In this document: positions 25,552 through 58,049 of the stretch, piece after piece
Numbering within the stretch: position 1 is the first letter of the stretch
Layout: each line of letters begins with the position of its first letter
NCBI RefSeq assembly: GCF_019175385.1
Contig: NC_083343.1
Coordinates: forward strand, 52,536,457 to 52,600,456
Length of the DNA: 64,000 nt
Direction: 5' to 3'
Source: Lycium barbarum
Lineage: Eukaryota > Streptophyta > Magnoliopsida > Solanales > Solanaceae
Notes under the pieces: generated by a model
Database searches by the model: none
What the model saw: only the letters and a program-made list of their open reading frames with translations
What the model was told of the DNA's origin: nothing
Program-made: the position numbers and the translations under genes

Positions 25552-26130
25552 TGTCACGACCCAGCCCCGTGGGCCGCGACTGGTGCCCTTCCGGGACACC
25601 CCAAACGAACTCACACCCAGATCATCGTAATCAGACTCGACCAAACTCAACGTACTCTATTCGAACTCAACATCGTAATCAGATCTCTACCGAACACTTA
25701 TCCTAAGCAGTCGCCCGTACAGATCAGACAAATCACAAATCAGAAAGGAGGCGGAATATACATCGCCAAATTTCACACACACACATCAGAAGGGTGGCGG
25801 AATGCACATCGCCCCCAAGTACATACACATACATACAAACTCAGAGGCCGACTTGGCCATAGCAGCGTACGTGCCGCTTAAGAATGCAAAACAGACTCAC
25901 ATACAAACACACCGGACCCACGACCCACAAATCTGACTACAGGCCTCTAGACAAAACAGAACATATGAACATATGACGGGACAGGGCCCCGCCGTACCCA
26001 CACATCCACAAATGTACAGAATACAGACACAACAAAAGACATGTACCAAAGTAGGCTCCGGATCAAAGGGGAGCTCTCCAACACAGCAGAATGAGTAGCC
26101 TAAACTGGAGGGCCACCCAAACGAGCTTCT

Positions 26131-26203
26131 GTACCTGCGGGCATGAAACACAGCCCCCGAAGAAACGGGGGTCAGTACGGGAGAAGTACTGAGTATGTAA
26201 AGC
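26131..26203 (-). other. Three-hairpin LTR module, D1 3' LTR
   Basis: On minus: AGTAC-TTCTCCC-GTACT; CCCCC-GTTTCTTC-GGGGG; CTGTG-TTTCATGCC-CGCAG. The last has a U-G pair and is intermediate between the C/A form (CTGCG/CGCAG) and the B form (CTGTG/CACAG). Confidence 0.7.
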
Positions 26204-28288
26204 AGAAGGTACAGAAATCACAAACACAGCTGGAGTCAGAAAGAACCAACACACCAACATCGCAAACAAAGCAAACCTGTGCGGGAGGCGAACGTACAAA
26301 TGCAAATCAAATCATGTATAGGGTTTAGGAACGTGGTCACCCCCCGACGCTGGTGCCACAACACATCATAACTCCAGAAGGTTTCAAATCTCCGTACAAT
26401 CTCCAGACACATCATATCATACACACATCATATCATCAGAACGTATCAAATGCCATATCACATCATAACTCCATAAACGGTAACCGGCCCTATGGCGAGG
26501 CCTCGGAAACCGTAACACATCATAACTCCCGAATATATTATAGTGCGCACGATCACAAAGTCGGCCCGGGTACCGACGAACGAAGTCATAGCAGGCAGCA
26601 CGAACAGAGTAGTGCAGAAATCATATGCATATCAAAAATAATTTGTCGGACTTAACATATAGTTTACGTAGAGGTATATACTGACGCCCGAAGGATCGGA
26701 GTAGGAATCAGACTGATCAAAGTATGCGTATAAAAGTTACGAAGTTCCAAACTGCCAAAATCGCAAGAAAACTGTTCATAAGTCATTTTCCGAAAATCTC
26801 ACATCATTCAAAGTACAAAACGTACATTAATGGCATAGAAAGTTTCAAACACATCCTTGGGTCCTAAACAGACGGTTGCGGATCATAACGGACACAAATG
26901 AATCAAACAAACCGAATAAGGGGAGCCTCGGGGCTCGCGGGCCCACCTCGAGTCAAATTGAGGTGGCGCACACAAATCACAGACTTTCGGCTCCATAGAG
27001 CCATCTACAAAAGTTTCGAAGAGTTTCGGACACAACAGCACAAGTTATGGAGGTACGAACATTCTTTTAACCAAATGTGACAAAGAGGGTTCAATCGCGC
27101 TGAGTGAATAGTGCTCGAACTTGAACCTCGATTTCCAAGAGTAGGATTATTCCCGAGGGGCCGATCTTAACCTAGTATATCTAGGACATGCCAAAAGAAT
27201 GATAGGTAGGCTTTACATACTTGGTTGGCGCCTTACGCTCCTCAAATCGCAATTCCTGTTTCGTCCAGAAACTGCAAATGGTCACTTTTACCAGTTACTA
27301 TTCATGAGAATTAACATTTTAGTCTTTGGGCTATATTTGGCTACCGAAATTTCGGCAGCACTTCCCCTATAAATCTAACACCCCCGAGACTTAGCTCGGC
27401 TCAAAATGTAACAACATCAACAGCCCAAACATCAATACACAATACGAATCACAATCAAACACACTAACTTCACAATTGCACCTCATTCCATAAGTTGGTA
27501 ATCCTATTTCCAAACTTCACAATTTCAACTCAAATCCACATTATTGTATTCATTCATTCAAGGTTATTCCATTACATAACAAACAAGTTCCAAACCACAT
27601 ACAAACATCCCCAAAGTTCACTACTTTCCAATTTTCATTCAAAACACCAAAAGTTACGACGAATGTTCTAACTTGCGTCGTTTCATTCCAAACTCATTAT
27701 CATCAACCATAAATCATATTTAAAGTCTTTAGTATCATATATATACTATGATATACACAAATATACCAAAGGTATACACTTTCCGATAACGTCCGAAATT
27801 ATTTTCTAACACCAACTCAATTCCTTAATCAATCCTTTACAACATAATGACCACAACAACACATCATTCAAGCTAAATAAGATCAAATTCTTATGCCTTA
27901 AACCTTATAAAACCCACGGCCAAACACACTCTTTTTGCACACACACGCCATGCACAAACACAACACCATTCCAAAATCTTCATGCCAATTCAATCACTAA
28001 CACATATGTATCCATTTCATAGCATTAAAACATAAAGATCTTACCTTTTTCTTGAATTTCCGATTTGCCGCAAACGAGCACCTTACGCCAATCTAATTAT
28101 ACCACCACGAAGAGCACCTCGAACTCATCAATCATTCCAAAAGAGACTAGGTGATTGGATTAGAAACAAGCCACGAATTTTTTTTTTTTCTCTTTCTTTT
28201 TCGGCCGAGAGCACCTTCAATGGTGTTCTTGAGATTTTTTTTTTTTGATCTTGATAAAGCTAACATATATCATATATATCCACTCCTA

Positions 28289-28311
28289 GGTCATGTGCAT
28301 AGCACATGACC
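28289..28311 (-). repeat. Perfect palindrome beside D1 TATA-like region
   Basis: GGTCATGTGC-ATA-GCACATGACC, ten-base arms with E-box-like CATGTG/CACATG. On the element strand it lies just upstream of GGATATATATGATATATG. Repeated in the other LTR about 6425 bp to the right. Confidence 0.65.
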
Positions 28312-28596
28312 TTAATAAATGGACTTGGACTTGCTCCCTTGGGCCGGCCAATTCACTTCCTTTGGGCCTCAATTTTTGTATTCCATTTTCTTAGCCCAAT
28401 TCATAAAATGTCCCGTTTTGTAATTCCCGAAACTAATTTCCGAAGTTCCAATTTTACCCTCGGCCTTCCCCGACGTCTTAACATTAATAACTCCATAACC
28501 AACATATTCATATTCACCAAAATCAAAATATTTCCTCAACACACAAGTCTTCTTTATTTCTTGATTTCCCGTTATACGAAAATACGGGACATAACA

Positions 28597-28610
28597 TTCT
28601 CCCCCCCTTT
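28597..28610 (-). other. D1 polypurine tract
   Basis: Minus reading AAAGGGGGGGAGAA, immediately before the 3' LTR. Confidence 0.9.
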
Positions 28611-28632: not shown

Positions 28633-29921
28633 GAATCGACCTCAAGGGTGTCGTACTACTCCGGGAGGGTTCTCTTGATAGGTCCTTTATTGATTTCTCC
28701 GACATGTCTTCTTTACCAATACTAGGGTAGATTTTTCACATCACTGACCCAAATACCTTCATAATACATTTTCTCATACTCTACGTAATCACCGAACTCT
28801 GCACTATATTCTCGTAAGGGACGGACGCTTTCCAGACATCATCGACAATATCATCTTCTTTTCACACTCCTGAGTTTCCTTACCACATCGTCGTAATCTC
28901 ACTTTACTTCATATCAGACACTTCATGCCCAACAGATTCAGAACTAAAACCGAACGGATTCATAATCGGAAGCAGACATACTCAACTATGGCGGTTGGAT
29001 TCGTAGTCAACATCGAAGGTACGAAAGCATATCAGACACATCTGAGATCGGAGTCAGACGTATAAAGGCGTATCAAACGAACTCGTAGGCAGAATCACAC
29101 ACACTAAGATATACCAAACAGATTCACAATCAAAGCCAGTCGTACGGAATCATATCGAACAAACCCGAATTCAGAAGCAAACATACAGAGTGGTTTCATA
29201 CCGAATCGTGATCAGACAAACCGAAGGGTATCAAACACACACGCGGTCAAAATCAAACGCATCGAAGCATATCAGACGGATTTATATCCAGAGTCAGACC
29301 CATAGAGGTGCGCCAGACAGAAACGGATTCGGAATCAAAGCGCACAAAAGGTTCATCGGACGGGAACCTAGTCGAGCGCAGAAGTACAGAGGTGTACTAG
29401 GTAGAGCCTCATCGGAATCGGAAGTGCAGAAGCACCACAGATGGGATGTCAATTTAGAATCAAATCATTCATATTAAAGCTCCAATAATTCATGAGAATG
29501 CCCCTTGATTTGCAAACTCATTCACCAAGTCGTCACACAATTTACCTTGCGTCTTACGTATCGATTCCTTCAAATTTCCAATTACTCACACTGCTTATCT
29601 TTTCTTTATCACAACATTAGTCGCCGGGCTCAGCTCTTAGCCCTCCTAGGCACCAAATGAGAATCATACACACACATACACATACATATACACCTACACA
29701 CGTTTACTCATACCTTACCGGCGAACATCTCTGGCTGTTATTCAAATTCGTTCAATTTCCCAAGAGGTGTTGTATCCTTTCCTTTTCGCCCATTTAGTCC
29801 GCCTCGTTCCGCGCGACTCTCGAAAGGGCACTAATTATTCTCCACACATTCTATTCCCCTTTGGTTACCCCAAATTCCCATTCACGTTAATCATACTTAC
29901 ACTTGTGCAAAATTTTGCGTT
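28633..29921 (-). mobile_element. D1 non-coding interior between 5S-like segment and polypurine tract
   Basis: No protein motif seen on either strand. The middle is a degenerate 41-bp tandem array (28930-29445). The remainder is pyrimidine-rich on plus and unremarkable. This segment replaces the pol genes of an autonomous element. Confidence 0.7.
28930..29445. repeat. Degenerate 41-bp tandem array, about 12-13 units
   Basis: Successive units begin at about 28955, 28996, 29038, 29079, 29120 and so on. Several are exactly 41 bases (for instance those ending TATCAAAC, TACCAAAC, TATCGAAC and GCCAGAC). Two differ in length by 1-2 bases and one is 35 bases. Recurrent words are TATCA(G/A)AC, GGATTC and AATC(G/A)(G/A)AG. 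Not a multiple of three, and frames are broken, so not coding. Confidence 0.7.
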
Positions 29922-30024
29922 ACTTCCCAGGGGGTCACCCATCCCAGAATTGCTCTGGCTTGAGCACGCTTAACCCTGAAACTTTTACACATTTTGACGC
30001 GTTAGGGCTGATATAATTTCGCCA
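29922..30024 (-). other. 5S-rRNA-like segment in D1
   Basis: On minus, 103 bases align without a gap to positions 1-103 of the plant 5S rRNA as I remember it, about 69 identities by hand. The best parts are GTTAAGCGTG (box A region) and GGATGGGTGA plus CTGGGAAGT (intermediate element and box C). The last 17 bases of 5S are absent. Same strand as the element, about 270 bp after the gag stop. A diverged derived copy, not a working 5S gene. Confidence 0.75.
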
Positions 30025-30128
30025 ACTGCCTCGCACGACCTTTGCCACGTAATTTTAGGCCAAACGGGGTCTTAGCAAATTTTTTCGGAAATTTTTCGTA
30101 GCGGGTCCCACTCTAACCCAAAGAGGTC
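30025..30128 (-). other. Block upstream of the 5S-like segment, shared with family A
   Basis: On minus this block (GACCTCTTTGGGTTAGAG ... ATTACGTGGC) matches 53759-53860 and 48027-48128 in family A, including GAGTG.GACCCG.TACGA and CCCCG. It shows that the 5S-like insert and its 5' flank share one origin. Confidence 0.65.
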
Positions 30129-30293
30129 GTTTGCTTTTCTGGCTGTGAGGTCTATCGTTCTAGTCTTCCAAATCCCATATTTTTCCCCCCCACATGTACA
30201 GATAACTGCCTCGGATATTTTCATTAATTCGGATTCTTACCTTACCTTTACTGACACACACAAAAGTATATCGCATAATACTGAGGTACAAAC

Positions 30294-31778
30294 CTACCAT
30301 TGCACATATTCATTAAACAAAAAGGTTAGTAATATACCTGGGTCTGTGTCTGGGGGTGCCTCTGGGTCCCGACGACCAGTCAAAGCGTAGATGCAGTTCG
30401 AGGGACCGCTAGAATCTGAAGCCCCACCACGGCCTCTACCGCGGCCCGCTGGTGCTGGCATACCTCGCCCCGTAGAGCGCGTGGCCGAAGGGGTAGATGA
30501 CGAACCAGCAACGGATCTCATCGGCGGTGCTGTGCTGCCGGAACCGCCTGCCCACGGACAATCCCGCATGATATGGCCCTGGCGGCCGCAAGCAAAACTG
30601 GCCCCCGTGGCCCTGAAGCACTCACCTGGGTGCGATCTTCCGCAATACGAACACTGGGGTATGGGTGGCCTAAACTGACTGGGACCCCTGCTCGCCTGAG
30701 GACCTGGGGCTCTGGAACTCTGGTCTGCCCTGGACGGTCCTGCTCCCTCGAACCTCTTACCAACAGACTGTGTGTCCCGGCCTGACGGAGGAAAGTACCC
30801 GCTGGACTGATACTGCGGCTGCCCGTCCCGTGAATCTCCAGGATACCCCGCTGATCTGGCCCTCTTGGGCCGTCTCCCATCATACTCTCGGCTGGGCCGA
30901 TCTGCTCGGTGCCGGTTCTCCATCCCCTGGGCGTAGGCCTGTAGACGGGCAATGTCCATATCTGTCTGCAATGATACCGCCATGCACCCGTCAATCAAGT
31001 AACGATCCAGCCCCATAACATACCTATGCATCCGATCTGTCATATCTGCCACCACGGCAGGGGCATACCGGGCCAGGGAATCAAACTCCAAATTATATTC
31101 ACGGACGCTCCGACCCCTCTGCTGCAGATGCAAAAACCGATCAGCTCGCTCCCGTCGTAACTCTGGGGGCAGAAAGTGGCGGGTGAAAGCAGTCACAAAC
31201 TGATCCCACATAGCTGGAGGAGCACCCTCACCCCGGGATAGCTCCCAAGTCTCATACCAATGCGCGGCAACATCCCGAAGTCTATGCGAAGCTAGCTCAA
31301 CCGACTCGGTCTCTGACGCCCTGACCAAGTCTAATGCACGCCGCATCCCCCGAATGAAGTCATGGGGGTCCTCGTCAGGCTTAGACCCGAAAAACTCTGG
31401 AGGGCCGCATAACAAGAACTCCCGAACTCTCAGGCTTTCCCGCCTGTCCTCATCATCATCGTCCCTCCGCCCGCGCCTGCGAGCCTGTCCGGCTACAATC
31501 GTGGTCAGCAACTGTATAGCCTCCCTCAGGGTCCTATCCTCCGCCCCTGGCTGAGGAGCTGGAGTCTCAGGAGCGGGTACACGGACCTCTGGAGCTGCTG
31601 AAGGTCCCGCTCCAGGCTGTACTAATGGGGGTGTAGCAGACCCCTCAGAATGAGGTGTAACCTCCGGCAAATCATAAACACGAGCCCGAGTAGCCCGTTG
31701 TGCCTGACTGGTCTCTCCCATCTTCGCCTTGCCCTTCTGGGCCGCCGTTGCCTTCTTCGGAGGCACCACTGCAAACAC
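30294..31778 (-). CDS. gag: Gag protein of element D1 (intact, no pol)
   Basis: Particle protein of 494 residues, uninterrupted. Opens MFAVVPPKKATAAQKGKA; the Met three codons before VPPKK is the only usable one in frame. Ala/Pro-rich N terminus, then the Gag domain from about residue 118 (EFLLCGPPEFFGSKPDEDP, ELASHRLRDVAAHWYETWEL, RHFLPPELRRERADRFL, SLARYAPAVVADMTDRMHRY). An RS/Q-rich linker is followed by knuckle 1 CSYCGRSHPGEC and knuckle 2 SFACGRQGHIMRDC, in which the first Cys is Ser. After GRGRGRGG and YALTGRRDPEAPPD the protein ends at ILLTFLFNEYVQW, where an autonomous element would enter protease. So it is Gag only. It probably needs reverse transcriptase and integrase from a B-like element. 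Confidence 0.9.
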   Translation of the reverse strand: MFAVVPPKKATAAQKGKAKMGETSQAQRATRARVYDLPEVTPHSEGSATPPLVQPGAGPSAAPEVRVPAPETPAPQPGAEDRTLREAIQLLTTIVAGQARRRGRRDDDDEDRRESLRVREFLLCGPPEFFGSKPDEDPHDFIRGMRRALDLVRASETESVELASHRLRDVAAHWYETWELSRGEGAPPAMWDQFVTAFTRHFLPPELRRERADRFLHLQQRGRSVREYNLEFDSLARYAPAVVADMTDRMHRYVMGLDRYLIDGCMAVSLQTDMDIARLQAYAQGMENRHRADRPSREYDGRRPKRARSAGYPGDSRDGQPQYQSSGYFPPSGRDTQSVGKRFEGAGPSRADQSSRAPGPQASRGPSQFRPPIPQCSYCGRSHPGECFRATGASFACGRQGHIMRDCPWAGGSGSTAPPMRSVAGSSSTPSATRSTGRGMPAPAGRGRGRGGASDSSGPSNCIYALTGRRDPEAPPDTDPGILLTFLFNEYVQW

Positions 31779-31976: not shown

Positions 31977-34900
31977 TGTCACGACCCAGCCCCGTGGGCC
32001 GCGACTGGTGCCCTTCCGGGACACCCCAAACGAACTCACACCCAGATCATCGTAATCAGACTCGACCAAACTCAACGTACGCTATTCGAACTCAACATCG
32101 TAATCAGATCTCTACCGAACACTTATCCTAAGCAGTCACCCGTACAGATCAGACAAATCACAAATCAGAAAGGAGGCGGAATATACATCGCCAAATTTCA
32201 CACACACACATCAGAAGGGTGGCGGAATGCACATCGCCCCCAAGTACATACACATACATACAAACTCAGAGGCCGACTTGGCCATAGCAGCGTACGGGCC
32301 GCTTAAGAATGCAAAACAGACTCACATACAAACACACCGGACCCACGACCCACAAATCTGACTACAGGCCTCTAGACAAAACAGAACATATGAACATATG
32401 ACGGGACAGGGCCCCGCCGTACCCACACATCCACAAATGTACAGAATACAGACACAACAAAAGACATGTACCAAAGTAGGCTCCGGATCAAAGGGGAGCT
32501 CTCCAACACAGCAGAATGAGTAGCCTAAACTGGAGGGCCACCCAAACGAGCTTCTGTACCTGCGGGCATGAAACACAGCCCCCGAAGAAACGGGGGTCAG
32601 TACGGGAGAAGTACTGAGTATGTAAAGCAGAAGGTACAGAAATCACAAACACAGCTGGAGTCAGAAAGAACCAACACACCAACATCGCAAACAAAGCAAA
32701 CCTGTGCGGGAGGCGAACGTACAAATGCAAATCAAATCATGTATAGGGTTTAGGAACGTGGTCACCCCCCGACGCTGGTGCCACAACACATCATAACTCC
32801 AGAAGGTTTCAAATCTCCGTACAATCTCCAGACACATCATATCACACACACATCATATCATCAGAACGTATCAAATGCCATATCACATCATAACTCCATA
32901 AACGGTAACCGGCCCTATGGCGAGGCCTCGGAAACCGTAACACATCATAACTCCCGAATATATTATAGTGCGCACGATCACAAAGTCGGCCCGGGTACCG
33001 ACGAACGAAGTCATAGCAGGCAGCACGAACAGAGTAGTGCAGAAATCATATGCATATCAAAAATAATTTGTCGGACTTAACATATAGTTTACGTAGAGGT
33101 ATATACTGACGCCCGAAGGATCGGAGTAGGAATCAGACTGATCAAAGTATGCGTATAAAAGTTACGAAGTTCCAAACTGCCAAAATCGCAAGAAAACTGT
33201 TCATAAGTCATTTTCCGAAAATCTCACATCATTCAAAGTACAAAACGTACATTAATGGCATAGAAAGTTTCAAACACATCCTTGGGTCCTAAACAGACGG
33301 TTGCGGATCATAACGGACACAAATGAATCAAACAAACCGAATAAGGGGAGCCTCGGGGCTCGCGGGCCCACCTCGAGTCAAATTGAGGTGGCGCACACAA
33401 ATCACAGACTTTCGGCTCCATAGAGCCATCTACAAAAGTTTCGAAGAGTTTCGGACACAACAGCACAAGTTATGGAGGTACGAACATTCTTTTAACCAAA
33501 TGTGACAAAGAGGGTTCAATCGCGCTGAGTGAATAGTGCTCGAACTTGAACCTCGATTTCCAAGAGTAGGATTATTCCCGAGGGGCCGATCTTAACCTAG
33601 TATATCTAGGACATGCCAAAAGAATGATAGGTAGGCTTTACATACTTGGTTGGCGCCTTACGCTCCTCAAATCGCAATTCCCGTTTCGTCCAGAAACTGC
33701 AAATGGTCACTTTTACCAGTTACTATTCATGAGAATTAACATTTTAGTCTTTGGGCTATATTTGGCTACCGAAATTTCGGCAGCACTTCCCCTATAAATC
33801 TAACACCCCCGAGACTTAGCTCGGCTCAAAATATAACAACATCAACAGCCCAAACATCAATACACAATACGAATCACAATCAAACACACTAACTTCACAA
33901 TTGCACCTCATTCCATAAGTTGGTAATCCTATTTCCAAACTTCACAATTTCAACTCAAATCCACATTATTGTATTCATTCATTCAAGGTTATTCCATTAC
34001 ATAACAAACAAGTTCCAAACCACATACAAACATCCCCAAAGTTCACTACTTTCCAATTTTCATTCAAAACACCAAAAGTTACGACGAACGTTCTAACTTG
34101 CGTCGTTTCATTCCAAACTCATTATCATCAACCATAAATCATATTTAAAGTCTTTAGTATCATATATATACTATGATATACACAAATATACCAAAGGTAT
34201 ACACTTTCCGATAACGTCCGAAATTATTTTCTAACACCAACTCAATTCCTTAATCAATCCTTTACAACATAATGACCACAACAACACATCATTCAAGCTA
34301 AATAAGATCAAATTCTTATGCCTTAAACCTTATAAAACCCACGGCCAAACACACTCTTTTTGCACACACACGCCATGCACAAACACAACACCATTCCAAA
34401 ATCTTCATGCCAATTCAATCACTAACACATATGTATCCATTTCATAGCATTAAAACATAAAGATCTTACCTTTTTCTTGAATTTCCGATTTGCCGCAAAC
34501 GAGCACCTTACGCCAATCTAATTATACCACCACGAAGAGCACCTCGAACTCATCAATCATTCCAAAAGAGACTAGGTGATTGGATTAGAAACAAGCCACG
34601 AATGTTTTTTTTCTCTTTCTTTTTCGGCCGAGAGCACCTTCAATGGTGTTCTTGAGATTTTTTTTTTTTGATCTTGATAAAGCTAACATATATCATATAT
34701 ATCCACTCCTAGGTCATGTGCATAGCACATGACCTTAATAAATGGACTTGGACTTGCTCCCTTGGGCCGGCCAATTCACTTCCTTTGGGCCTCAATTTTT
34801 GTATTCCATTTTCTTAGCCCAATTCATAAAATGTACCGTTTTGTAATTCCCGAAACTAATTTCCGAAGTTCCAATTTTACCCTCGGCCTTCCCCGACGTC

Positions 34901-35019
34901 TTAACATTAATAACTCCATAACCAACATATTCATATTCACCAAAATCAAAATATTTCCTCAACACACAAGTCTTCTTTATTTCTTGATTTCCCGTTATAC
35001 GAAAATACGGGACATAACA
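31977..35019 (-). mobile_element. D1 5' LTR (right copy)
   Basis: 3043 bp, nearly identical to 25552-28596. The few visible differences include a T-run length change near 34604. Confidence 0.92.
32556..32628 (-). other. Three-hairpin LTR module, D1 5' LTR
   Basis: Identical to the copy at 26131-26203. Confidence 0.7.
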
Positions 35020-40180: not shown

Positions 40181-40210
40181 ATTAGTCATGTGAGTTATCA
40201 TGTGACTAAT
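40181..40210 (+). repeat. Inverted repeat beside D2 TATA-like region
   Basis: Arms ATTAGTCA and TGACTAAT, 14 bases apart. Confidence 0.55.
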
Positions 40211-42316: not shown

Positions 42317-42827
42317 TTCGTGATCCGCCAGTGTAGGCCACATATTCTGCTATCACAGAGTGCTCCTTTTGATCCGGAGCCCACATTTTGGTACATATGT
42401 CTTTTGCTACGTATATGTCTCTGTACATTTGACTAATTGGGTACGGCGGGGCCCTGTCCCGTCATATGTCTTCGTTGTGATTTGTAGAGGCCTGTAGTCA
42501 TATTGTGGGTCATGGGTCAAGTGCGTGTGTTCGCTTTGTTTATGATTTACGTCTTAATGCGGTCCTATCTGTTATGGCGGCCAGGGTGGCCCATATGTTT
42601 GTATATGTGTATATAATCGGCGATGTGTATTCCGCCGCCCCTTTTGACTTTGGATATGATATTTTTGGCACGCGTGACCGCTTAAGACAATATTTGATTT
42701 TGAATCTGTTTTAATGATTAATATGAGATCTGAGATAATCTATAATATGACGATTTGGTATGTTTGTCTGTCCGGGTGCCCAAGTAGGGCGCCAGTCGCG
42801 ACCCACGGGGCTGGGTCGTGACAGAAG

Positions 42828-42839
42828 TGGTATCAGAGC
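42828..42839 (+). other. D2 primer-binding site, copy 1
   Basis: TGGTATCAGAGC after the LTR end. Confidence 0.9.
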
Positions 42840-43441
42840 GGTTTGTCCTCGGAATGTCTATAGGTCGTGTCTGATAGAGTCCTGTTTATCGGTGTGTTAT
42901 GCACCACATCTATAAACAGGAGGCTACAGGACATTTAGGGTGTTCCCTTTCTTTGAATCTTAGATCGTGCGATAGAGCCAGCCGTAGGAAATGAATCCCT
43001 TCTACTAACCCTTAATTTCAGCTGGAGAACGGTATCGGTGTAAGACAATGACTGATGATATTGGAAGCTACACAGTACACAGGTAAGCAATGGTATGGAA
43101 GATGTATGCTGGGTAAGGTGTTTGAAATACGATTGAAATATAAAGTTGAAGATTGAACAGAAAAGTAAACAGGAAAGTGCCTCCGATGCCGTTTGAGTTA
43201 GGCATGTGAGGTAAGTTTCAACATTTTCATACTTTTATTTGAAATTGTTAGCCCTGTGTGGCTATGACACGACATGATACGATATATATATATATATACG
43301 TATATGTGTTGGCCCTGTGAGGCATGGTTGGTATTTTCTGCGTGCAGGTTTTAGGATAGTAAGAAATACAGAGGAACCTCTGCCCAAATTTTTCCAGAAA
43401 TATAAAAAGGAGAATAAGATATAAGTTCTTATAAGGCGCAC
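42840..43441 (+). mobile_element. D2 internal region, copy 1, truncated
   Basis: Non-coding, nearly identical to 46349-46935. Homology ends at TTCTTA (43431). About ten extra bases (TAAGGCGCAC) join it to the second LTR; they form a small fold-back with the GCGC of the LTR. Confidence 0.8.
42880..42921 (+). other. Leader stem-loop, D2 copy 1
   Basis: CCTGTTTAT/ATAAACAGG outer stem, GGTGTG/CACATC inner stem, loop reads TTATGCAC, so the hexamer palindrome is broken by one base in this copy only. Confidence 0.65.
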
Positions 43442-46332: not shown

Positions 46333-46336
46333 GAAG

Positions 46337-46348
46337 TGGTATCAGAGC
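46337..46348 (+). other. D2 primer-binding site, copy 2
   Basis: TGGTATCAGAGC. Confidence 0.9.
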
Positions 46349-47303
46349 GGTTTGTCCTCGGAATGTCTACAGGTCGTGTCTCGTAGAGTCCTGTTTATCG
46401 GTGTGTTGTGCACCACATCTATAAACAGGAGGCTACAGGACATTTAGGGTGTTCCCTTTCTTTGAATCTTAGATCGTGCGATAGAGCCAGCCGTAGGAAA
46501 TGAATCCCTTCTACTAACCCTTAATTTCAGCTGGAGAACGGTATCGGTGTAAGACAGTGACTGAGGATATTGGAAGCTACACAGTACACAGGTAAGCAAT
46601 GGTATGGAAGATGTATGCTGGGTAAGGTGTTTGAAATACGATTGAAATATAAAGTTGAAGATTGAACAGAAAAGTAAACAGGAAAGTGCCTCCGATGCCG
46701 TTTGAGTTAGGCATGTGAGGTAAGTTTCAACATTTTCATACTTTTATTTGAAATTGTTAGCCCTGTGTGGCTATGACACGACATGATACGATATATATAT
46801 ATACGTATATGTGTTGGCCCTGTGAGGCATGGTTGGTATTTTCTGCGTGCAGGTTTTAGGATAGTAAGAAATACAGAGGAACCTCTGCCCAAATTTTTCC
46901 AGAAATATAAAAAGGAGAATAAGATATAAGTTCTTAATATGTCTTGAAAGTCGATACCGATAGGGGTAAATCTATTATGTTGGCTTAAAGTTCAAGAGAT
47001 ACCCTCCATGTCATTCGCGAGAAGCCTCATCCTTATTTGGGAAATTTTATTTCGAGGAAGCCTATATGAGCAGCGATTCGCAACTTATTTAAACGGACTA
47101 GAATATGTTCCAACCCCATTTTGCTTTAGAAAAGCCTGCGTCGAAGGGAAAAAATGTCCAACGATTAAGTTTCATTTTATTGGAAGGATACGAAGTGTAT
47201 GACAGGAAGTTGAGAATTAAATGGTTCGCTCACGACTCAAAAATATAAATATAAATATGGTGGTAATTTTGTGAATTAAGATTCCGCGATGTTCGTTGGA
47301 CTC
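46349..47303 (+). mobile_element. D2 internal region, copy 2
   Basis: Non-coding and related to 24381 onward in element C, including the part (AATATGTCTTGAAAGTCG and beyond) missing from copy 1. Ends at GACTCTAG, fused at TAG to the C LTR. Confidence 0.8.
46389..46431 (+). other. Leader stem-loop with GTGCAC loop, D2 copy 2
   Basis: CCTGTTTAT/ATAAACAGG, GGTGTG/CACATC, loop TT + GTGCAC. Confidence 0.7.
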
Positions 47304-47610: not shown

Positions 47611-47615
47611 CCGTC
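47611..47615 (+). repeat. Target duplication CCGTC, right of element C
   Basis: Pairs with 20338-20342. Confidence 0.9.
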
Positions 47616-48128: not shown

Positions 48129-48212
48129 GGGTGCAATTATACTAGCATTAACGCATCGAAATGCATTAAAGTTTTGAGGTTAACCGTACTAGGGCCAGAG
48201 CAATTTTGGGAT
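48129..48212 (+). other. 5S-rRNA-like segment, A copy 1, truncated
   Basis: Corresponds to 5S positions 1-84. The box A region is mutated (AACCGTA for AAGCGTG). Box C is deleted by a 390-bp loss that begins after GGGAT. Confidence 0.7.
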
Positions 48213-48377
48213 ACTGGTTACACCACTAATTAAGGCTAGAAAGTCCTAGTACAACGATGTCCGGGAATAGAAAGACAGCGAGTACGAAAAAGGGGATAGC
48301 AATTGTAACGTTTGGAAATTTTTGAAGGAAAGACAGAGACCTCCCCGAAGTATTATGAGACCCCATAAGGTCAGTTA
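48213..48377 (+). mobile_element. Family A copy 1, pre-polypurine spacer
   Basis: Short non-coding stretch matching 54337-54500 of copy 2. No gene seen. Confidence 0.7.
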
Positions 48378-48397
48378 AACATTCGAGGACGAATGTT
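48378..48397 (+). other. Pre-polypurine hairpin, A copy 1
   Basis: AACATTCG-AGGA-CGAATGTT, perfect arms. Confidence 0.8.
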
Positions 48398-48399
48398 CT

Positions 48400-48413
48400 A
48401 AAGGAGGGGAGGA
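48400..48413 (+). other. Polypurine tract, A copy 1
   Basis: AAAGGAGGGGAGGA before the central LTR. Confidence 0.9.
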
Positions 48414-48715
48414 TGTTATATCCCGTATTTTGCACGTTCGGATAAATTGGGATAATCAAGACAAGTTAAGGACAAGGCTACAATTTTATCTTGTTTAATA
48501 TATAAGTTGTTCATGAAAATATTGACGCGGAAATATTGAGGAAGGCTAAGGGAAAAATTGGAAATTTGGAGAATAGTTTCATAAATTGCAAATTGTCATG
48601 AAATAAAAGTGGGCTTGGAATGAAAAAAAAAAAATTGGGCTTGAATTAATTGGCCAAGGTGGCCATCCACCTTAGTGGGCCAAGGCCCGTGTGAGAGCCC
48701 ATTACATGCTATTAA

Positions 48716-48734
48716 AAGATGACAAAGTCATCTT
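48716..48734 (+). repeat. Inverted repeat at the A TATA-like region
   Basis: AAGATGAC-AAA-GTCATCTT, eight-base arms, directly after CTATTA. Confidence 0.6.
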
Positions 48735-50680
48735 ATTTATCATCTTCACTTTAGAAAGTTCAAGAAAATTTGAGAGACAAAAAAATGAAGGGCCATTCGG
48801 CGAAGGTGCTCAAAAATTGAGCCTTCAATTTTGATCCCAAAAAAAATAATTCCTCCTAGCATTCCTACTAATTTGAAGGTCCACTTCAACGTGGTATAAT
48901 TATTTAAGCAAGAAAACTTCTCTTGGTGGCAAGTGGAAAATTGATGAAAAGGTGATAATTTCTATTCTTTTACATGTTATGGAAGATTTATATATGTTAT
49001 AGTGAGTCGAATTGAATGAAAATCATGGAAATGTTATGTGTTGTGTGTGGGCCGTGTGGGTGTGTTGTATGTGTGTGGCAGTGTGGTGTAAATTGGTGGA
49101 GGAAGGATGAATTAATTTTATTTAGCATGTTAGTTGTGTTGTTGTGGCCTTTATAATGTAAATGAAGGTTTAATGGTTCAAGTCGGCATTGAAATTTGTT
49201 GTGGGTTGTTGTAGGAACTTAATGCGATTTTAATATGGTTTTATGTAATTGTGGAAATGGAGTTGCTAAAGTGTGCATTGTTATTGTAGTTTATGAATTT
49301 GAAAGAAGAAAATGTCTTGTTGTAGTTCTTGTTGTATTTGGATGGTTTTGGATGGAATGGAGGTTGGTTGGATAGTTTTGAATGTTATGCGAATAGTTTG
49401 AAATGTACTTGAATATGTAAGCAATTGTGAATTGAACGTAAATGGAAAGTCGTCAAGTTTATAGAAAGAAGTTGTTAATGTTGGAATGTGTTTTGAATTG
49501 ATTGTCGATATTGTTGGATTGTTGGAATAACTGTTGGCACTGTTGTATTTTTGGCCCAGTTGAATTCTCGGGGATGGTGCATTTACAGGGGAAATGCTGC
49601 CGAAATTTCTGTAGATTAAGTGTTGGCTTAAAATTGGACTCTAAGTGTTGATGGCTAATGTTTGATATGTATGAATATTGTTGTAGATCTTGCGAAGTCA
49701 AAGACTAAAGTTCGGATTAGCGTAGAAAGCGGGCAAGGTATGTAAGGCTTAACCTTTTCTTCTTTGGAATGATCCTTATGAAATAAGTATATGACGTATA
49801 TGTATGACTTCAGAAAGATCCTTATTCTTAGAGCCACTAGGATGCCTAACGTTCTTGATTTCCTATAAGCTGTTCCGTATGGTTTTGATATGTATCCATG
49901 ACGTTCGATGATGTGTATCTATGATGTCCAAAGTTTGGCCAATATGTCCCGAATAGCATGTGAGAAACAAATGATATAACTACAGTTTTGACCTTCCAAA
50001 TGTTAACATATTCGATTGTTCCATCGGGCCTTTCATATGTTTGATATGTACATAAGATTCCAAAAGTTCTATTTGATTTGATCCATAACGATATCCAAAA
50101 GATTTTGACATGATTATGGTTGTGATTTTCCAAAAATGGTTTCTGAAACGCTTATAGAACACGTTCTGTACTTCAAACGCTCGTAACTTTCTTATGCTAA
50201 TTCCGATCGAACTTGTTTCTGAGTCCTCAGATGTTGGTAAATATATTTGTCCATCGAGTCTTGGAGTTTTATTCATTCAGTTATATGCATATGATTTTGA
50301 TACGTATCTATGACTTTTCAAGCTCTATTTGAGATGTTCCGAGTTGTCTACTATTCTTGTCCATTTTCGATATGGGTACGCTCGATATAATCGAGCTTAT
50401 TATATGAATGAATAACGAGATAAGCATAAAGAATTTTGTTTCTAAAGAGTTCTGTATGTTTTGATGTCCCTAACTTTCGTAAGAAATCTCGGATTTGCTT
50501 GAATGTCCGTAAAAGTTCTGTGGTAAAAATGTCCGAAACTCTCACATACTAACTCCGATTGATTCGGGACGTGTTTATGATCTTCAAATGTCGGTAAGTG
50601 TACCTATCTATTGAGTCTGGATATGTGTGCATATGGGTTCTTACTGCTCTGTTCGTGCGAGCCTCAGTATGTTATTCACT

Positions 50681-51075
50681 GCGGCCCGGGCCAGGTTCTG
50701 TTATCGTGCATCTTCCTCTACATTTTTCACCGCGTCCCTCTCCCTTACGGGCCGGGTTCTGTTATATGTATGTCTGTATATGATGATATGGGGATGGCGG
50801 CCAGGATGGCATATGATGATTCTGTTCACCACGTTCCGCAATAGAGGGCCGAGATCTGTTATCTGCATATACGGTACATGATTCTGACATGCATTGATTA
50901 CCCTGTCCACCGCGTCCCTCACTAAAGGGCCGGGATCTGTTACACGCATATATGGTATCTGATTTTGGCATCGGATGATTCAGTCCACCGCGTCCCTTAC
51001 CAGAGGGTCGGGATCTGTTATAAGATTCTGTTCACCGCGTCCCTCACTAGAGGGTCGAGATCTGTTATATGTATA
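50681..51075 (+). repeat. GTCCCTC/GAGGGCC hairpin array, A central LTR
   Basis: Six or so copies of CACCGCGTCCCTCACTA(G/A)A-type hairpins followed by GGGCCGGGATCTGTTA, with irregular spacing. Repeated at 56799-57190. The short frames here on both strands are by-products of the repeat. Confidence 0.7.
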
Positions 51076-51420
51076 GATACGATATATGATTCTGATATGT
51101 TTGGTTTGTATCTGGAAAGTAAGCATTTTGGCATTATGTATCCTCTGTACTTCTTCGGACATATGATATCAACATACATGATCTGTGTCTGGAAAATAAA
51201 TATTCTGACATTCCAGATCCGTACTTCTTCTGACATATGACTTCGGCATATACGATCTGCGTTTGGAAAACAATCATTCTGATATTCTGGGTCTGCACTT
51301 TTCTGACATATGACATCTGCATATATGATTTGTGATTGGGGAAAATAGCGCTTTGGTAATCTGGATAATGTACTTACTTTTGTATCGTTGTTCCGGTTAT
51401 GGTTCTGCTTTCTGTATTTC

Positions 51421-51500
51421 ATGCCTTACATACTCAGTACATATTCCGTACTGACCCCCTTTCTTCGGGGGCTGCGTTTCATGCCCGCAAGTATAGACGC
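51421..51500 (+). other. Three-hairpin LTR module, A central LTR
   Basis: CAGTAC-ATATTCC-style loop-GTACTG; CCCCC-TTTCTTC-GGGGG; CTGCG/CGCAA with one mismatch. Confidence 0.7.
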
Positions 51501-51935
51501 TTATTGTGGTGATCCACCAGCCTAGGGTGTCCATTCTGCTACTTTGGAGTGCTCCTTTGATCCGGAGCCCACACTTTTGGTACAGATCATTCTGTTGTAC
51601 ATATTTATGTGTATATGACTATTCAGGGGTACGGCGGGGCCTTGTCCCGTCACATGTTTCTGTTGTCTTTGTTAGAGGCTTGTAGACATGTATGTGGGTC
51701 GTGGGTCGCATGTGATCAGTGACGTCTATGTGGTTTGTGTCCGGCTTTCCTATACCCTACGATAACCTGATCAATTTATGTGTTATAATATAAGTAATGA
51801 TTTAAATGATATGTATATGGTTTTGTATTCACGAAGTCCTTAATAGGAAACACAAGTGAAATTTGGTCAGTAGGTATGTATGAGTGTCCATCTCGGGCAC
51901 TAGTCGCGGCCTACGGGGTTGGGTCGTGACAAAAG

Positions 51936-51947
51936 TGGTATCAGAGC
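51936..51947 (+). other. Family A primer-binding site, copy 2
   Basis: TGGTATCAGAGC, four bases after the LTR. Confidence 0.9.
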
Positions 51948-51987
51948 GGTTTGTCCTCGGAATGTCTATAGGCCGTGTCTAGTAGAG

Positions 51988-52030
51988 TCTTGTTTGTCGG
52001 TGTGTTGTGCACCACATCTATAAACAGGAG
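51988..52030 (+). other. Leader stem-loop with GTGCAC loop, A
   Basis: CTTGTTTGT/ATAAACAGG outer stem (with G-U pairs), GGTGTG/CACATC inner stem, loop TT + GTGCAC. Confidence 0.7.
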
Positions 52031-52122
52031 GCTACAGGACATTTAGGGTGTTACCTTTCTTTGGATCTTAGATCGTGCGATAGAGCTGTGCTATTAGGAT
52101 GATTTGTTTCTGACCGACTGTT

Positions 52123-53652
52123 ATGCTTTCAGGGATGTCTCCGAAGAAGGCGACGGCTGCCCAGAAGGGCAAAGCAGTGGCAGGAGAGACCAACCAGATA
52201 CAGAGAGTTACTCGGGCTCGTGCTCAGACTATGCCCGATATAGCACCCCAGTCAGAGGGTTCTGCTACACCCCCACCATTGGAGGAGCCTGGAGCAGCAG
52301 CCGCTGCCACCATGGATCAGGGGGCGGCTCCACCAGTAGCCCCAGAGGCTCCAGCTCCCGAGCCTCCAGCTCCTCAGCCAGGGGCGGAGGATAGGGCGAT
52401 GAGGGATGCTGTACAGTTATTGACGAGGCTAGTAGCAGGGCAGGCTCGCAGACGCGGGCTAGGGGGTGATGATGTGGATAGATGCGACAGTTTGAGGGTT
52501 CGTGATTTCTTGACCTGCAATCCCCCAGAGTTCTATGGTTCCAAACCCGAGGAGGATCCCTAGGACTTCATTCGACAGATGCAGCGTACGCTGAGATTAG
52601 TCAGAGCTTCTGAGACTGAGTCTGTTGAGCTGGCTTCATATAGACTGCGTGATGTGGCGGTTAATTGGTATGAGTCCTGGGAGCTGTCCAGAGGCGAGGA
52701 TGCTCCTCCAGCTGTATGGGATGAGTTTACAGCCGCCTTTCTCGGCCATTTTCTGCCTCTCGAGATCCGACGAGCGAGGGTTGACAGATTTTTGCAGCTG
52801 AGACAGAGGGGCAGGAGTGTTCGGGAGTACAGCCTAGAGTGTGACTCCCTAGCCAGATATACGCCCAGCATCGTAGCTGATACGACTGACAGGATGCACC
52901 GGTATGTGATAGGGTTGGATGATTACCTGGTTGATAGTTGTATGTCGATGGCATCTCAGTCCGGGATGGATATTGCATGGTTGCAGGCATACGCACTGGG
53001 AATGGAGGACCGACATAGAGGGCGTCAGCCCGATATGGATTGTGACAGGAGATTGCCCAAGAGAGCTAGACCAGCTGGTTATTCTGGGGAGTTTTGAGGC
53101 GGGCAGCCTCAACAGCACATTAGACAGCCTTCTCAGCCAGCGCGAAGTGCACCCCCGCAATCTACTGGTGAGAGATTTGATAGCACAGGATACTCAGGAG
53201 CTGGACAAAGTTCCAGGGCTTCGGGTTCGCAAGTAAGTACAGGTGTCAGTCAGTCAAAGCTACCCATGCCTAGGTGTTCTTACTGTGGGAAGCCTCACCC
53301 AGGGAGGTGTTATTGTGCTATGGGTGCCTGTTTTTTTTGTGGCCGTCAGGACCATGTTTTGAGGGAGTGCCCGTTTCAGAATGGTACCCGTGGTTCAGCC
53401 CAGCCCACTGGGTCGGTTGCTGGTTCATCTCCCCCTTCTGTAGCTATGCGGTCGACACCGGCAGGCCGCGGTAGAGGTCGTTGCAGAGCTCCCGGTTCTA
53501 GCGGTCCTTCAAACCGCACGTATGCTTTGGCCAGCCGGCAGGATCAGGAGGCGTCACCAGATGTAGTTACAGGTATACTACTTATCTTCTTCCGAAATGT
53601 ATATGTGTTGATAAATATAATTTTTCCCTGGTTACTAGTGGAATTCGGATAA
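52123..53652 (+). pseudogene. Family A gag copy 2, two stops
   Basis: One frame from 52123 (or the Met of MSPKKATAAQKG at 52135) to a TAA at 53650-53652, about 509 codons. It has a TAG at 52561-52563, right after FYGSKPEEDP, and a TGA at 53095-53097. Ala/Pro-rich N terminus, Gag domain (ASYRLRDVAVNWYESWELSR, GLDDYLVDSCMSMASQSGMD), knuckles CSYCGKPHPGRC and CFFCGRQDHVLREC (intact CX2CX4HX4C), GRGRGR, then the same short tail as copy 1 (GILLIFFRNVYVLI). It stops short of protease. The first stop is shared with copy 1, so it predates the duplication of the internal region. Confidence 0.88.
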
Positions 53653-53860
53653 AACCCGAATAGATAGAACCGTTTGAGGTAGCTATTCATACAGATAAAA
53701 AGTGAATGTTGATAATTTAAAAGGCTAAGTCGGTACCTACATAATCAGAAAAATAAAAGACCCTCTTTAGATCAGAGTGAGACCCGTTACGAGAACCTTC
53801 CGGAAATTGTTAAGGCCCCGACTTGCCCTAGATTACGTGAGAAGGGTTGTGCGGGGAAGT
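53653..53860 (+). mobile_element. Family A copy 2, spacer before 5S-like segment
   Basis: Non-coding. 53759-53860 is conserved with D1 30128-30025 (minus). Confidence 0.65.
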
Positions 53861-53963
53861 GGGTGCAATTATACCAGTATTAACGCATCGAAATGCATTA
53901 AAGTTTTGAGGTTAAGCGTGCTAGGGCCAGAGCAATTTTGGGATGGGTGACTCCCTGGGAAGT
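53861..53963 (+). other. 5S-rRNA-like segment, A copy 2 (full 103 bases)
   Basis: Aligns gap-free to positions 1-103 of the plant 5S rRNA as remembered, about 76 identities by hand. It starts GGGTGC, has ATACCAG at 11-17, GTTAAGCGTG at 51-60, GGATGGGTGA at 81-90 and CTGGGAAGT at 95-103, then diverges. Sense to gag, 209 bp after the gag stop. A derived copy: positions 31-50 are poorly kept. Confidence 0.8.
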
Positions 53964-54501
53964 GTACTAAAATTTCAACAAATATAGATATAAGAGACAA
54001 ATAGGAAATTTGGGGGTAACCTAAAGGAAATTAGAATATGCGGAGTGATTAGAAACCTTAAAAAGGTCGGGTAGATTGAGGTAGAATAGGCCGGTGAAAA
54101 AGAAGACAGAGCAACATAGCTTTGGAATGAGAGTATGTTTGAATAAGCGTTTGGGGAATGTTTTGTAAACGAAATGGTAGTAAATGTATATGTATGCATA
54201 TGACATTCCATTTATGACTGTATCGATCGGCAGGTGGGCCCCAGCAGTCAGTGTTGCGATATATGAAAGACATTGACTGAACGGAATTTAAAAGACAAAG
54301 CGAGAGATATGGTACAGATGTTACAAGTAGACTGATACTGGTTCCACCAATAATTAAGGCTAGAAAGTCCTAGTACAACGATGTCCGGGAATAGAAAGAA
54401 AGCGAGTACGAAAAAGGGGATAGCAATTGTAACGTTTGGAAATTTTTGAAGGAAAGACAGAGACCTCCCCGAAGTATTATGAGACCCCATAAGGTCATTT
54501 A
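53964..54501 (+). mobile_element. Family A copy 2, non-coding 3' interior
   Basis: No protein motif. Contains about 390 bp absent from copy 1 (53946-54335). Minus-strand frames here are low-complexity and unsupported. Confidence 0.65.
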
Positions 54502-54521
54502 AAAATTCGAGGACGAATGTT
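54502..54521 (+). other. Pre-polypurine hairpin, A copy 2
   Basis: AAAATTCG-AGGA-CGAATGTT; two mismatched bases in the left arm, otherwise as in the other elements. Confidence 0.7.
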
Positions 54522-54523
54522 CT

Positions 54524-54537
54524 AAAGGGGGGGAGGA
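54524..54537 (+). other. Polypurine tract, A copy 2
   Basis: AAAGGGGGGGAGGA before the 3' LTR. Confidence 0.9.
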
Positions 54538-56798
54538 TGTTATATCCCGTATTTTGCACGTTTGGATAAATTGGGATAATCAAGACAAGTTAAGGACAAG
54601 GCTACAATTTTATCTTGTTTAATATATAAGTTGTTCAAGAAAATATTGACGTAGAAAATTGAGGAAGGATTAGGGAAAAATTGAAAATTTGGAGAATTGT
54701 TTCATAAATTGCAAATTGTCATGAAATAAAAGTGGGCTTCGAATGAAAAGAAAAAAAATTGGGCTTGAATTAATTGGCCAAGGTGGCCATCCACCTTAGT
54801 GGACCAAGGCCCATGTGAGAGCCCATTACATGCTATTAAAAGATGACAAAGTCATCTTATTTATCATCTTCACTTTAGAAAGTTCAAGAAAATTTGAGAG
54901 ACAAAAAATTGAAGGGCCATTCGGCGAAGGTGCTCAACAATTGAGCCTTCAATTTTGATCCCAAAAAAAATAATTCCTCCTAGCATTCCTACTAATTTGA
55001 AGGTCCACTTCAACGTGGTATAATTATTTAAGCAAGAAAACCACTCTTGGTGGCAAGTGGAAAATTGAGGAAAAGGTGATAATTTCTATTCTTTTACATG
55101 TTATGGAAGATTTATATATGTTATAGTGAGTCGAATTGAATGAAAATCATGGAAATGTTATGTGTTGTGTGTGGGCCGTGTAGGTGTGTTGTATGTGTGT
55201 GGCCGTGTGGTGTAAATTAGTGGAGGAAGGATGAATTAATTTTATTTAGCGTGTTAGTTGTGTTGTTGTGGCCTTTATAATGTAAATGAAGGTTTAATGG
55301 TTCAAGTCGGCATTGAAATTTGTTGTGGGTTGTTGTAGGAACTTAATGCGATTTTAATATGGTTTTATGTAATTGTGGAAATGGAGTTGCTAAGGTGTGC
55401 ATTGTTATTGTATTTTATGAATTTGAAAGAAGAAAATGTGTTGTTGTAGTTCTTGTTGTATTTGGATGGTTTTGGATGGAATGGAGGTTGGTTGGATTGT
55501 TTTGAATGTTATGCGAATAGTTTGAAATGTACTTGAATATGTAAGCAATTGTGAATTGAACGTAAATGGAAAGTCGTCAAGTTTATAGAAAGAAGTTGTT
55601 AACGTTGGAATGTGTTTTGAATTGATTGTCGATATTGTTGGAATAAATGTTGGCATTGTTGTATTTTTGGCCGAGTTGAATTCTCAGGGATGGTGCATTT
55701 ACAGGGGAAATGTTGCCGAAATTTCTGTAGATTAAGTGTTGGCTTAAAATTGGACTCTAAGTGTTGATGGCTAATGTTTGATATGTATGAATATTGTTGT
55801 AGATCTTGAGAAGTCAAAGACTTAAGTTCGGATTAGCGTAGAAAGCGGGCAAGGTATGTAAGGCTTAACATTTTCTTCTTTGGCATGATCCTTATGAAAT
55901 AAGTATATGACGTATATGTATGACTTCAGAAAGATCCTTATTCTTAGAGCCACTAGGATGGCTTACGTTCTTGATTTCCTATAAGCTGTTCCGTATGGCT
56001 TTGATATGTATCCATGACGTTCAATGATGTGTATCTATGATGTCCGAAGTTTGGCCAATATGTCCCGAATAGCATGTGAGAAACAAACGATATGACTATA
56101 GTTTTGACCTTCCAAATGTTAACATATTTTATTGTTCCATCGGGCCTTTGATATGTTTGATATGTACATAAGATTCCAAAAGTTCTATTTGATTTGATCC
56201 ATAATGATATCCAAAAGATTTTGACATGATTATGGTTGTGATTTTCCAAAAATGGCTTCTGAAACGCTTATAGAACGTTCTGTACTTCAAAAGCTCGTAA
56301 CTTTCTTATGCTAATTTCGATCGACCCGAAACTTGTTTCTGAGTCCTCAGATGTCGGTAAATATATTTGTCCATCAAGTCTTGGAGTTTATTCATTCATT
56401 TATATGCATATGGTTTTGATACGTATCTATGACTTTTGAAGCTCTATTTGATATGTTCCGAGTTGTCTACGATTCTTGTCCATTTTCGATATGGGTACGC
56501 TCGATATAATCGAGCTTATTATATGAATGAATAACGAGATAAGCATAAAGAATTTTGTTTCTAAAGAGTTCTGTAAGTTTTGATGTCCCTAACTTTCGTA
56601 AGAATCTCGGATTTGCTTGAATGTCCATAAAAGTTTTGTGGTAAAAATGTCCGAAACTCTCACATACTAACTCCGATTGATTCGAGACGTGTTTATGATC
56701 TTCAAATGTCGGTAAGTGTACCTATCTATTGAGTCTGGATATTTGTGCATATGGGTTCTTACTGCTCTGTTCGTGCGAGCCTCAGTATGTTATTCACT

Positions 56799-57190
56799 GC
56801 GCCCCGGGCCAGGTTCTGTTATCATGCATCTTCCTCTGCATTGTTCACCGCGTCCCTCTCCCTTGCGGGCCGGGTTCTGTTATATGTATGTCTGTATATG
56901 ATGATATGGGGATGGCGGCCAGGATGGCATATGATGATTCTGTTCACCGCGTTCCGCAATAGAGGGTCGGGATCTGTTATCTGCATATACAGTACATGAC
57001 TCTGACATACATTGATTACCCTGTCCACCGCGTCCCTCACTAAAGGGCCGGGATCTGTTACATGCATATATGGTATCTGATTTTGGCATCGGATGATTCG
57101 GTCCACCGCGTCCCTTACCTGAGGGCCGGGATCTGTTATAAGATTATGTTCACCGCGTCCCTCACTAGAGGGCCGGGATCTGTTATATGT
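56799..57190 (+). repeat. GTCCCTC/GAGGGCC hairpin array, A 3' LTR
   Basis: Same arrangement as at 50681-51075, with substitutions mostly outside the CCCTC/GAGGG stems. Confidence 0.7.
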
Positions 57191-57540
57191 ATAGATACGA
57201 TATATGATTCTGATATGTTTGGTTTGTATCTGGAAAGTAAGCATTTTGGCATTATGTATCCTCTGTATTTCTTCTGACATATGATATCAGCATACATGAT
57301 CTGTGTCTGGAAAACAAATATTCTGACATTCCGGATCCGTACTTCTTCTGACATATGACTTCGGCATATACGATCTGCGTTTGGAAAACAATCATTCTGA
57401 TATTTTGGGTCTGCACTTTTCTAACATATGACATCTGCATATATGATTTGTGATTGGGGAAAATAGCGCTTTGGTAATCTGGATAATGTACTTACTTTTG
57501 TATCGTTGTTCCGGTTATGGTTCTGCTTTCTGTATTTCAT

Positions 57541-57617
57541 TCCTTACATACTCAATATATATTCCGTACTGAACCCCTTTCTTCGAGGGCTGCGTTTCAT
57601 GCCCGCAGGTACAGACG
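57541..57617 (+). other. Three-hairpin LTR module, A 3' LTR
   Basis: Hairpin 1 has lost pairing (CAATATATATTCCGTACTG); hairpin 3 is intact CTGCG/CGCAG. Confidence 0.6.
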
Positions 57618-58049
57618 CTTATTGTGGTGATCCGCCAGCCTAGGGTGTCCATTCTTCTACTTTGGAGTGCTCCTTTGATCCGGAGCCCACACTTTTGGTA
57701 CAGATCTTACCGTTGTACATATTTATGTGTATATGACTATTCAGGGGTATGGCGGGGCCCTGTCCCGTCATATGTTTCTATTGTCTTTGTTAAAGGCCTG
57801 TAGACATGTTTGTGGGTCGTGGGTCGCATGTGATCAGTGACGTCTATATGGTTTGTGTCCGGCATTCCTATACACTACGATAACCTAATCAATTTATGTG
57901 TTATAATATAAGTAACGATTTAAATGATATGTTTATGGTTTTGTATTCACGAAGTCCTTAATAGGAAACGCAAGTGAAATTTGGTTAGTTGGTATGTACG
58001 AATGTCCATCTCGGGCACTAGTCGCGGCCTACGGGGTTGGGTCGTGACA

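Follow-up and report, generated by a model that had tools for sequence, protein, structure and literature searches.

How does a piece of 5S rRNA come to lie in the interior of LTR retrotransposons, and what might it do there? The question is raised by a window of 64,000 nucleotides of Lycium barbarum DNA, the whole stretch analysed here, in which a sequence-only reading had noticed a 103-base 5S-like segment in gag-encoding, pol-less elements of two families, A and D1, together with a shortened third copy. We compared these segments with the host 5S gene (119 nt) taken from the host's own genome (1.67 Gb), in which the 5S rDNA comprises at least 47 genes, 44 of the 47 matches listed being on C6.

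5S-derived segments in the window

In element A2 the segment occupies 53861..53963 (+), corresponds to 5S nt 1-103 and is identical to the host gene at 78/103 positions without a gap (blastn E 5e-16). Element D1 carries its copy at 29922..30024 (-), again ungapped, with 70/103 identities to the host gene; here nt 51-103 are 85% identical to host 5S (blastn E 3e-12). Both loci had thus been read correctly, in coordinates as in orientation. Ungapped identity to host 5S across the window averages 25 (sd 4.3), and no unrelated place exceeds 47. The copy in A1 (48129..48212, +) is indeed truncated, being cut by a deletion after 84 nt; it keeps 64 identities in the 103-column frame and is still significant by blastn (E 1e-4). 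This deletion reaches the pre-LTR region, since at 48210-48212 the likeness to A2 jumps from 53944 to 54334.

A covariance search gave a more divided answer. With Infernal and RF00001 the A2 segment scores 31.9 bits, with E 4.6e-5 when 251 bases are searched and 0.012 when the search extends to the whole window and all families; the D1 segment scores 22.8 bits, the corresponding E values being 0.013 (271 bases) and 3.1 (whole window). Both fall short of the gathering score of 38. An Rfam scan of the window at the gathering score returned no match, and a sensitive scan together with the host's own 5S was needed. Infernal thus supports A2 weakly and D1, taken by itself, not at all, so that it is blastn, together with its relatives in the genome, that carries the case for D1. 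Sixteen of these relatives, part of the 20 longer samples described below, were given to Rfam, and 5/16 reach the gathering score, the best with 53.1 bits (L087).

The A2 element is bounded by an A-type LTR at 48304..51931 (+), which begins with TGTAACG, ends with GTGACA and also serves as the 3' LTR of A1, and by its own 3' LTR at 54428..58049 (+), both delimited by self-comparison with the ends read. Its primer binding site (PBS), TGGTATCAGAGC at 51936..51947 (+), is one that we take to be of the initiator-Met tRNA type. The gag frame (52123..53652, +; PF03732 in the ORF 52579-53097) contains two in-frame stops before its end, and the segment follows in sense 208 bp past the stop that ends the frame (53652). 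A conserved module, delimited by blastn with genome copies and by alignment, encloses the segment at 53715..54142 (+), and the polypurine tract (PPT), placed by eye, lies at 54411..54420 (+). Within the segment, box A would run from about 53910-53924 and the IE from about 53927-53932, limits that we assume from the known 5S promoter; the box C pattern is at 53941-53963 (all +).

A1 and A2 form a tandem LTR-internal-LTR-internal-LTR chain with one LTR in common, and the stretch 48129-58049 itself reads as a tandem LTR-internal-LTR-internal chain with the shared LTR. Elsewhere in the genome, at G000:C2 65915752-65925702 and at several C1 places, box-C/segment matches lie about 4-7 kb apart on one strand, a spacing that suggests further LTR-sharing tandem chains. 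The gag of A1 is split by a nested block at 20343-47610 (TGTTATATC...GTGACA), flanked by a CCGTC duplication at 20338-20342 and 47611-47615; the A2-like stretch 19079-20342 resumes at 47611.

Element D1 spans 25552-35019 and includes an open gag of 494 codons (30294..31778, -; PF03732). Its 5' LTR (31977..35019, -) and 3' LTR (25552..28596, -) differ at 9 of 3,042 positions, and the target duplication (TSD) is AGCTC. Here the segment begins 269 bp past the gag stop, within a conserved module at 29746..30175 (-) recognised by blastn with genome copies, and the sense orientation given by the sequence-only reading is confirmed in both elements. The placement between gag and polypurine tract also holds, with the addition that the D1 segment is followed by a further 1.3 kb, in which none of the proteins tested found a match, before the polypurine tract AAAGGGGGGGAGAA (28597..28610, -, placed by eye) is reached. 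Loose TCCGTTTGATA-like repeats are visible by eye after the segment, at 28700-29500 (minus).

Outside A1, A2 and D1 the segment was not found in the window: the modules of 20 genome copies match the window by blastn at the three reported places only, and the B element, which encodes protease, RT and integrase, lacks the segment, as had been claimed. A tandem pair at 39913-43431 and 43442-46936, 97.8% alike, consists of an LTR and a short internal part in which neither gag nor the 5S module was matched. At 4516-4621 (minus) there is a match to the plant snoRNA R71 of 37.9 bits, below its gathering score of 40.

A genome-wide module and its origin

A search for further segments of this kind had been proposed, and it found the module throughout the genome. 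Box A and box C cores, both exact and in this order, occur together 8,088 times, and box C (23 positions, at most one mismatch) 9,534 times, rDNA included in both counts; the reversed controls gave 0 in each case. The two boxes are 18 apart, as in the host gene, in 99/100 listed exact cores and 16 apart in one. For closer comparison we took 60 of 100 listed box-C places, all chosen by exact box C from 4.4-45.1 Mb of C1, 20 of them at 1.3-1.4 kb and 40 at 483 bp. With the 5S part removed, all 60 samples are linked by homology (blastn E up to 1e-3) in the upstream and in the downstream flank, each flank forming one group. No Cassandra copy was recognised among them.

The segment lies in the internal domain, between the PBS or gag and the 3' LTR, in 7/7 elements seen with both sides (A1, A2, D1, L069, L090, L091 and L093). 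The view over several kilobases comprises the three elements of the window and five 8-kb loci, eight in all, so that a 5S segment placed in an LTR may occur elsewhere in the genome. In L093 gag precedes the segment. Three of the 8-kb loci without a gag match (L069, L090, L091) show an LTR, a PBS, 0.66-0.91 kb and then the segment, without a match to the proteins tested in the internal domain; the next LTR begins a further 1.9 kb (L069) or 2.2 kb (L091) on. In L092, again without a gag match, the PBS was unmatched and an LTR pair is not shown. The segment thus extends beyond gag-encoding elements.

Among the 20 longer samples, gag lies within about 1 kb upstream of the segment in eight, and RT or integrase was found beside it in none, "no pol" here referring to tblastn queries with pieces of RT and integrase that come from the window itself. 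Of the 60 best A- and D-type loci (1.5 kb on each side), 51 contain gag and four contain a C-terminal part of integrase 3' of the segment on the same strand, between segment and 3' LTR (L011:2732-2897, L023:2366-2536, L031:335-153, L033:81-1). From the lack of pol beside the module and these remnants 3' of it, we conclude that the module sits after gag, where pol is missing. Apparent RT matches (w7RT) in six A-type loci do not represent pol but a stretch at the LTR, 24-28 residues long. The loci L009 and L053 correspond to copies in the window itself. The 40 best D1 matches, chosen as such, are all 100% identical over 121 nt.

Identity to the host gene is graded, from 95/103 (L108) and 92/103 (L129) to 70 in D1 and lower values in shifted copies, and the flanks are homologous throughout this gradient. 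A2 and D1 have derived changes in common as well as homologous flanks, which argues for a single acquisition; the segment is thus present in both families, as had been said, by one event and not two. It does not represent a full-length 5S: the 5' junction falls at 5S nt 1, similarity stops at nt 103/104, and the closing helix I is not kept. No rDNA spacer is found at either junction, which rules out an origin from rDNA with its spacer.

The junctions point to a single capture of 5S nt 1-103/104, probably via template switching. A Ty3/gypsy-type ancestor would have taken up nt 1-103 of host 5S rRNA in sense, its reverse transcriptase moving from the element RNA into 5S rRNA at nt 103, running off the 5' end at nt 1 and returning to the element RNA. 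Entry at nt 103 and run-off at the 5' end would leave the junctions and the sense orientation that are observed. To judge from the junctions, the switch would have fallen in the region of pol loss, whichever of loss and capture came first. The earlier idea of a template switch that replaced pol thus fits the junctions, exactly at nt 1 and at nt 103, and the 3' integrase remnants; its reading of the segment as a relic does not agree with the constraint described below. A SINE3 insertion is a possible source of the segment. By eye we recognised no SINE tail beside it, and family-wide module sequence flanks it on both sides; an old SINE3 insertion could have shed its signs. Whatever its source, the insert has spread with the element through several gag-bearing and gag-less non-autonomous families.

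Constraint on the promoter boxes and their possible function

Box A, IE and box C occur in the order and spacing of 5S, the layout of a type-1 Pol III promoter. The 30 best A-type and 30 best D-type loci were not accepted as a measure of conservation, having been selected by the segment itself; the box-C-anchored sample and counts took their place. On a tree built from flank columns only (62 rows: the 60 samples, A2 and D1), the parsimony steps per site are 1.69 in the box A core (50-62) and 2.67 in the IE, against 5.14 in the spacer 73-79, 5.14 in 5S 1-49, 5.92 in the upstream flank and 6.53 in the downstream flank. None of the other unconditioned windows, of 321 in all, has a value as low as that of the box A core, and the lowest value outside the 5S part is 3.85. 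Box A at host spacing is missing in 3/60 samples, and no host-like TATA at -28 was seen by eye upstream in 22 rows. A2 and D1 agree at 48/53 sites of nt 51-103 and at 35 of the first 50, with 67% agreement over the internal region.

Having served for the sampling, box C was not judged on the flank tree, and counts were made. Exact box C is kept in 12/24 exact flank matches and the exact flank in 12/100 exact box C matches; the corresponding figures for the A..C core and the flank are 9/13 against 9/100. By exact matches, box C outnumbers a flank motif of equal information content about fourfold, a ratio that mixes decay with fixed family differences, since the motif, picked by the author from box-C-selected samples, suits types A, D and F more closely than types E and H. 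Genome-wide, the 9,534 matches to box C with at most one mismatch compare with 6,071 to the flank motif with at most two. As the copies are related, p-values for such counts overstate independence.

At the level of sequence, these comparisons show box A, the IE and the box spacing to be under purifying selection, the remainder having drifted; for box C the counts suggest the same. The segment agrees with a TFIIIA/Pol III promoter under selection, of the Cassandra kind without being Cassandra, and of the functions proposed earlier that of a Pol III promoter is favoured, with box A and IE slow, the adjoining spacers fast and the spacing host-like. A terminator-like TTTT follows in D1 at 29909..29912 (-), 10-13 nt past 5S nt 103. 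It sits within a palindrome, GCAAAATTTTGC (29907-29918, minus), directly after the segment. Such a T4 starts at +9 or +10 past nt 103 in 15/16 D-like samples, against 0.46% of background windows, and occurs within 25 nt of the segment in 3/44 samples outside the D group; the T4 of the D group may be one inherited change.

We favour, with somewhat better than even confidence, the reading that 5S nt 1-103 was captured and that selection has held its boxes for TFIIIA/TFIIIC binding and recruitment of Pol III. Such binding would bring Pol III to the interior of the element and yield a short sense RNA, starting at segment nt 1 and reading toward the 3' LTR; in D-type elements the T4 near 113-116 would presumably make it 5S-sized. 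Because it would start downstream of R, U5, PBS and gag, such a transcript could not be the full genomic RNA, unlike that of Cassandra, and the promoter would have to help the element otherwise. TFIIIC/Pol III occupancy might keep the element open or insulated, or the short RNA might act in trans. The constraint on the promoter is supported by the comparisons above; its use we infer. A bolder form of this proposal, to which we give tentative credence with the balance against it, is that a large lineage of non-autonomous Ty3/gypsy-type elements traded pol for the captured promoter and now works with two promoters. One, in the LTR, would let Pol II make the genomic RNA; the other, internal and used by Pol III, would give a short sense RNA (5S-sized in D-type) or a TFIIIC roadblock needed by the element for spreading. 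To our knowledge, no two-polymerase life cycle has been described for LTR retrotransposons.

It is unlikely, in our judgement, that the segment acts instead as RNA within the Pol II genomic transcript, as a partial 5S mimic for TFIIIA, L5 or Gag in export or packaging. The sense orientation and the fixed spot in the internal domain are in its favour, as is a plant precedent: in the excerpts of one report, an exonised 5S insertion seems to influence the splicing of TFIIIA transcripts (PMC3409069). Pairing was counted in 20 rows, namely A2, D1 and 18 of the 20 longer samples, L071 and L078 being left out because of shifts. Helix IV/V is 68% paired, above all 500 shuffles, with relatedness uncontrolled; helix III reaches 86%, from 30 two-sided cells, and helix II 71%, neither of them above shuffles, and helix I is paired in 41% of cells, at shuffle level. 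Minimum free energy folds of seven element copies do not give the host 5S fold, the cut at nt 103 itself removing helix I, and the slow boxes and fast spacers track a DNA promoter and not the stems. Since the complete 5S fold is not kept, a promoter acting as DNA is favoured, and the earlier suggestion of an RNA-level role (TFIIIA/L5 binding, export) is weakened, with the helix IV/V pairs indicating that a partial RNA role may remain.

Equally doubtful is a passive relic, captured once and hitch-hiking ever since, whose conservation would reflect recent expansion and the sampling by box C. All 60 samples have one module in common, as expected of one capture, and young families are nearly identical. 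This explanation has to contend with box A, which played no part in the sampling and is the slowest of the 321 windows on the flank-based tree, with equal-information counts that favour the boxes, and with the closer agreement of A2 and D1 at nt 51-103 than over the internal region. We regard it as very improbable that the boxes are kept 5S-like by gene conversion, be the donor 5S rDNA or another 5S-bearing element: box C equals the host sequence in 18/20 longer samples, themselves sampled by box C, yet conversion should replace whole tracts, and most samples depart from the host at positions 63-66 and 73-79, which lie between conserved boxes and show letters shared across a family. A similarity due to chance or to an unrelated repeat, to which the scores of the window copies under the RF00001 gathering threshold might have pointed, is refuted by the E of 5e-16 to the host gene and by graded relatives that rise to 95/103 (L108) and 53.1 bits (L087).

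Comparison with known systems

TR-GAG elements consist of LTRs and gag only. D1 resembles them in having LTRs, PBS, PPT and gag and no pol, the gag of A2 being broken, and differs in its 5S-derived part, which the excerpts we drew on do not mention for TR-GAG. The internal domains of the gag-less L069, L090 and L091, with no match to the proteins tested, recall the large retrotransposon derivatives, or LARDs, for which the available part of the source mentions no 5S promoter in the interior (PMC7215508). SINE3, the 5S-headed SINEs (PMC10886601, in part), likewise place a 5S-derived Pol III promoter in a mobile element; here the segment lies within an LTR element, between family-wide flanks. 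Ajax and Helenus, termed "TRIMp3", are non-autonomous LTR elements with a captured piece of a small-RNA-gene promoter, that of Ajax, in nemerteans, being derived from 5S and limited to the box region, as excerpts of the same source describe them (PMC10886601). As in our elements, their promoter motifs are conserved and the RNA fold is not; in contrast to ours, the promoter piece lies in the LTRs of elements of 0.3-1.3 kb.

The closest comparison is with Cassandra, a 5S-bearing TRIM of vascular plants (PMC10853983, PMC7215508), whose boxes are slow, spacers fast and spacing fixed (PMC10853983), as far as the excerpts of these papers go. Both are non-autonomous LTR elements with conserved A, IE and C boxes, variable spacers and no larger indels, and both form tandem LTR-internal arrays. 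Cassandra has a Met PBS and a PPT, and so do A2 and D1, where TGGTATCAGAGC follows the 5' LTR and the PPT precedes the 3' LTR, if the tRNA type is what we assume. Cassandra carries its 5S in the middle of both LTRs, in elements of 0.56-0.97 kb without coding remains, whereas here the segment is internal, the LTRs measure 3.0-3.6 kb (A2, D1) and gag is often present; the contrast drawn by the sequence-only reading is supported by the internal position in seven elements. In the literature covered, seen partly in excerpts and with most subscription papers and Repbase outside its scope, large or gag-bearing LTR elements are not reported to hold a 5S promoter in their internal domain.

Elements such as these can be a source of dispersed "5S" signals in plant genomes. 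The Pol III promoter pieces described in LTR retrotransposons are promoters in the LTRs of miniature elements; here a 5S piece has been kept in thousands of copies at a position from which genomic RNA cannot start. This raises the question of what a Pol II retroelement gains from Pol III factors, be it occupancy, insulation or a trans-acting RNA.
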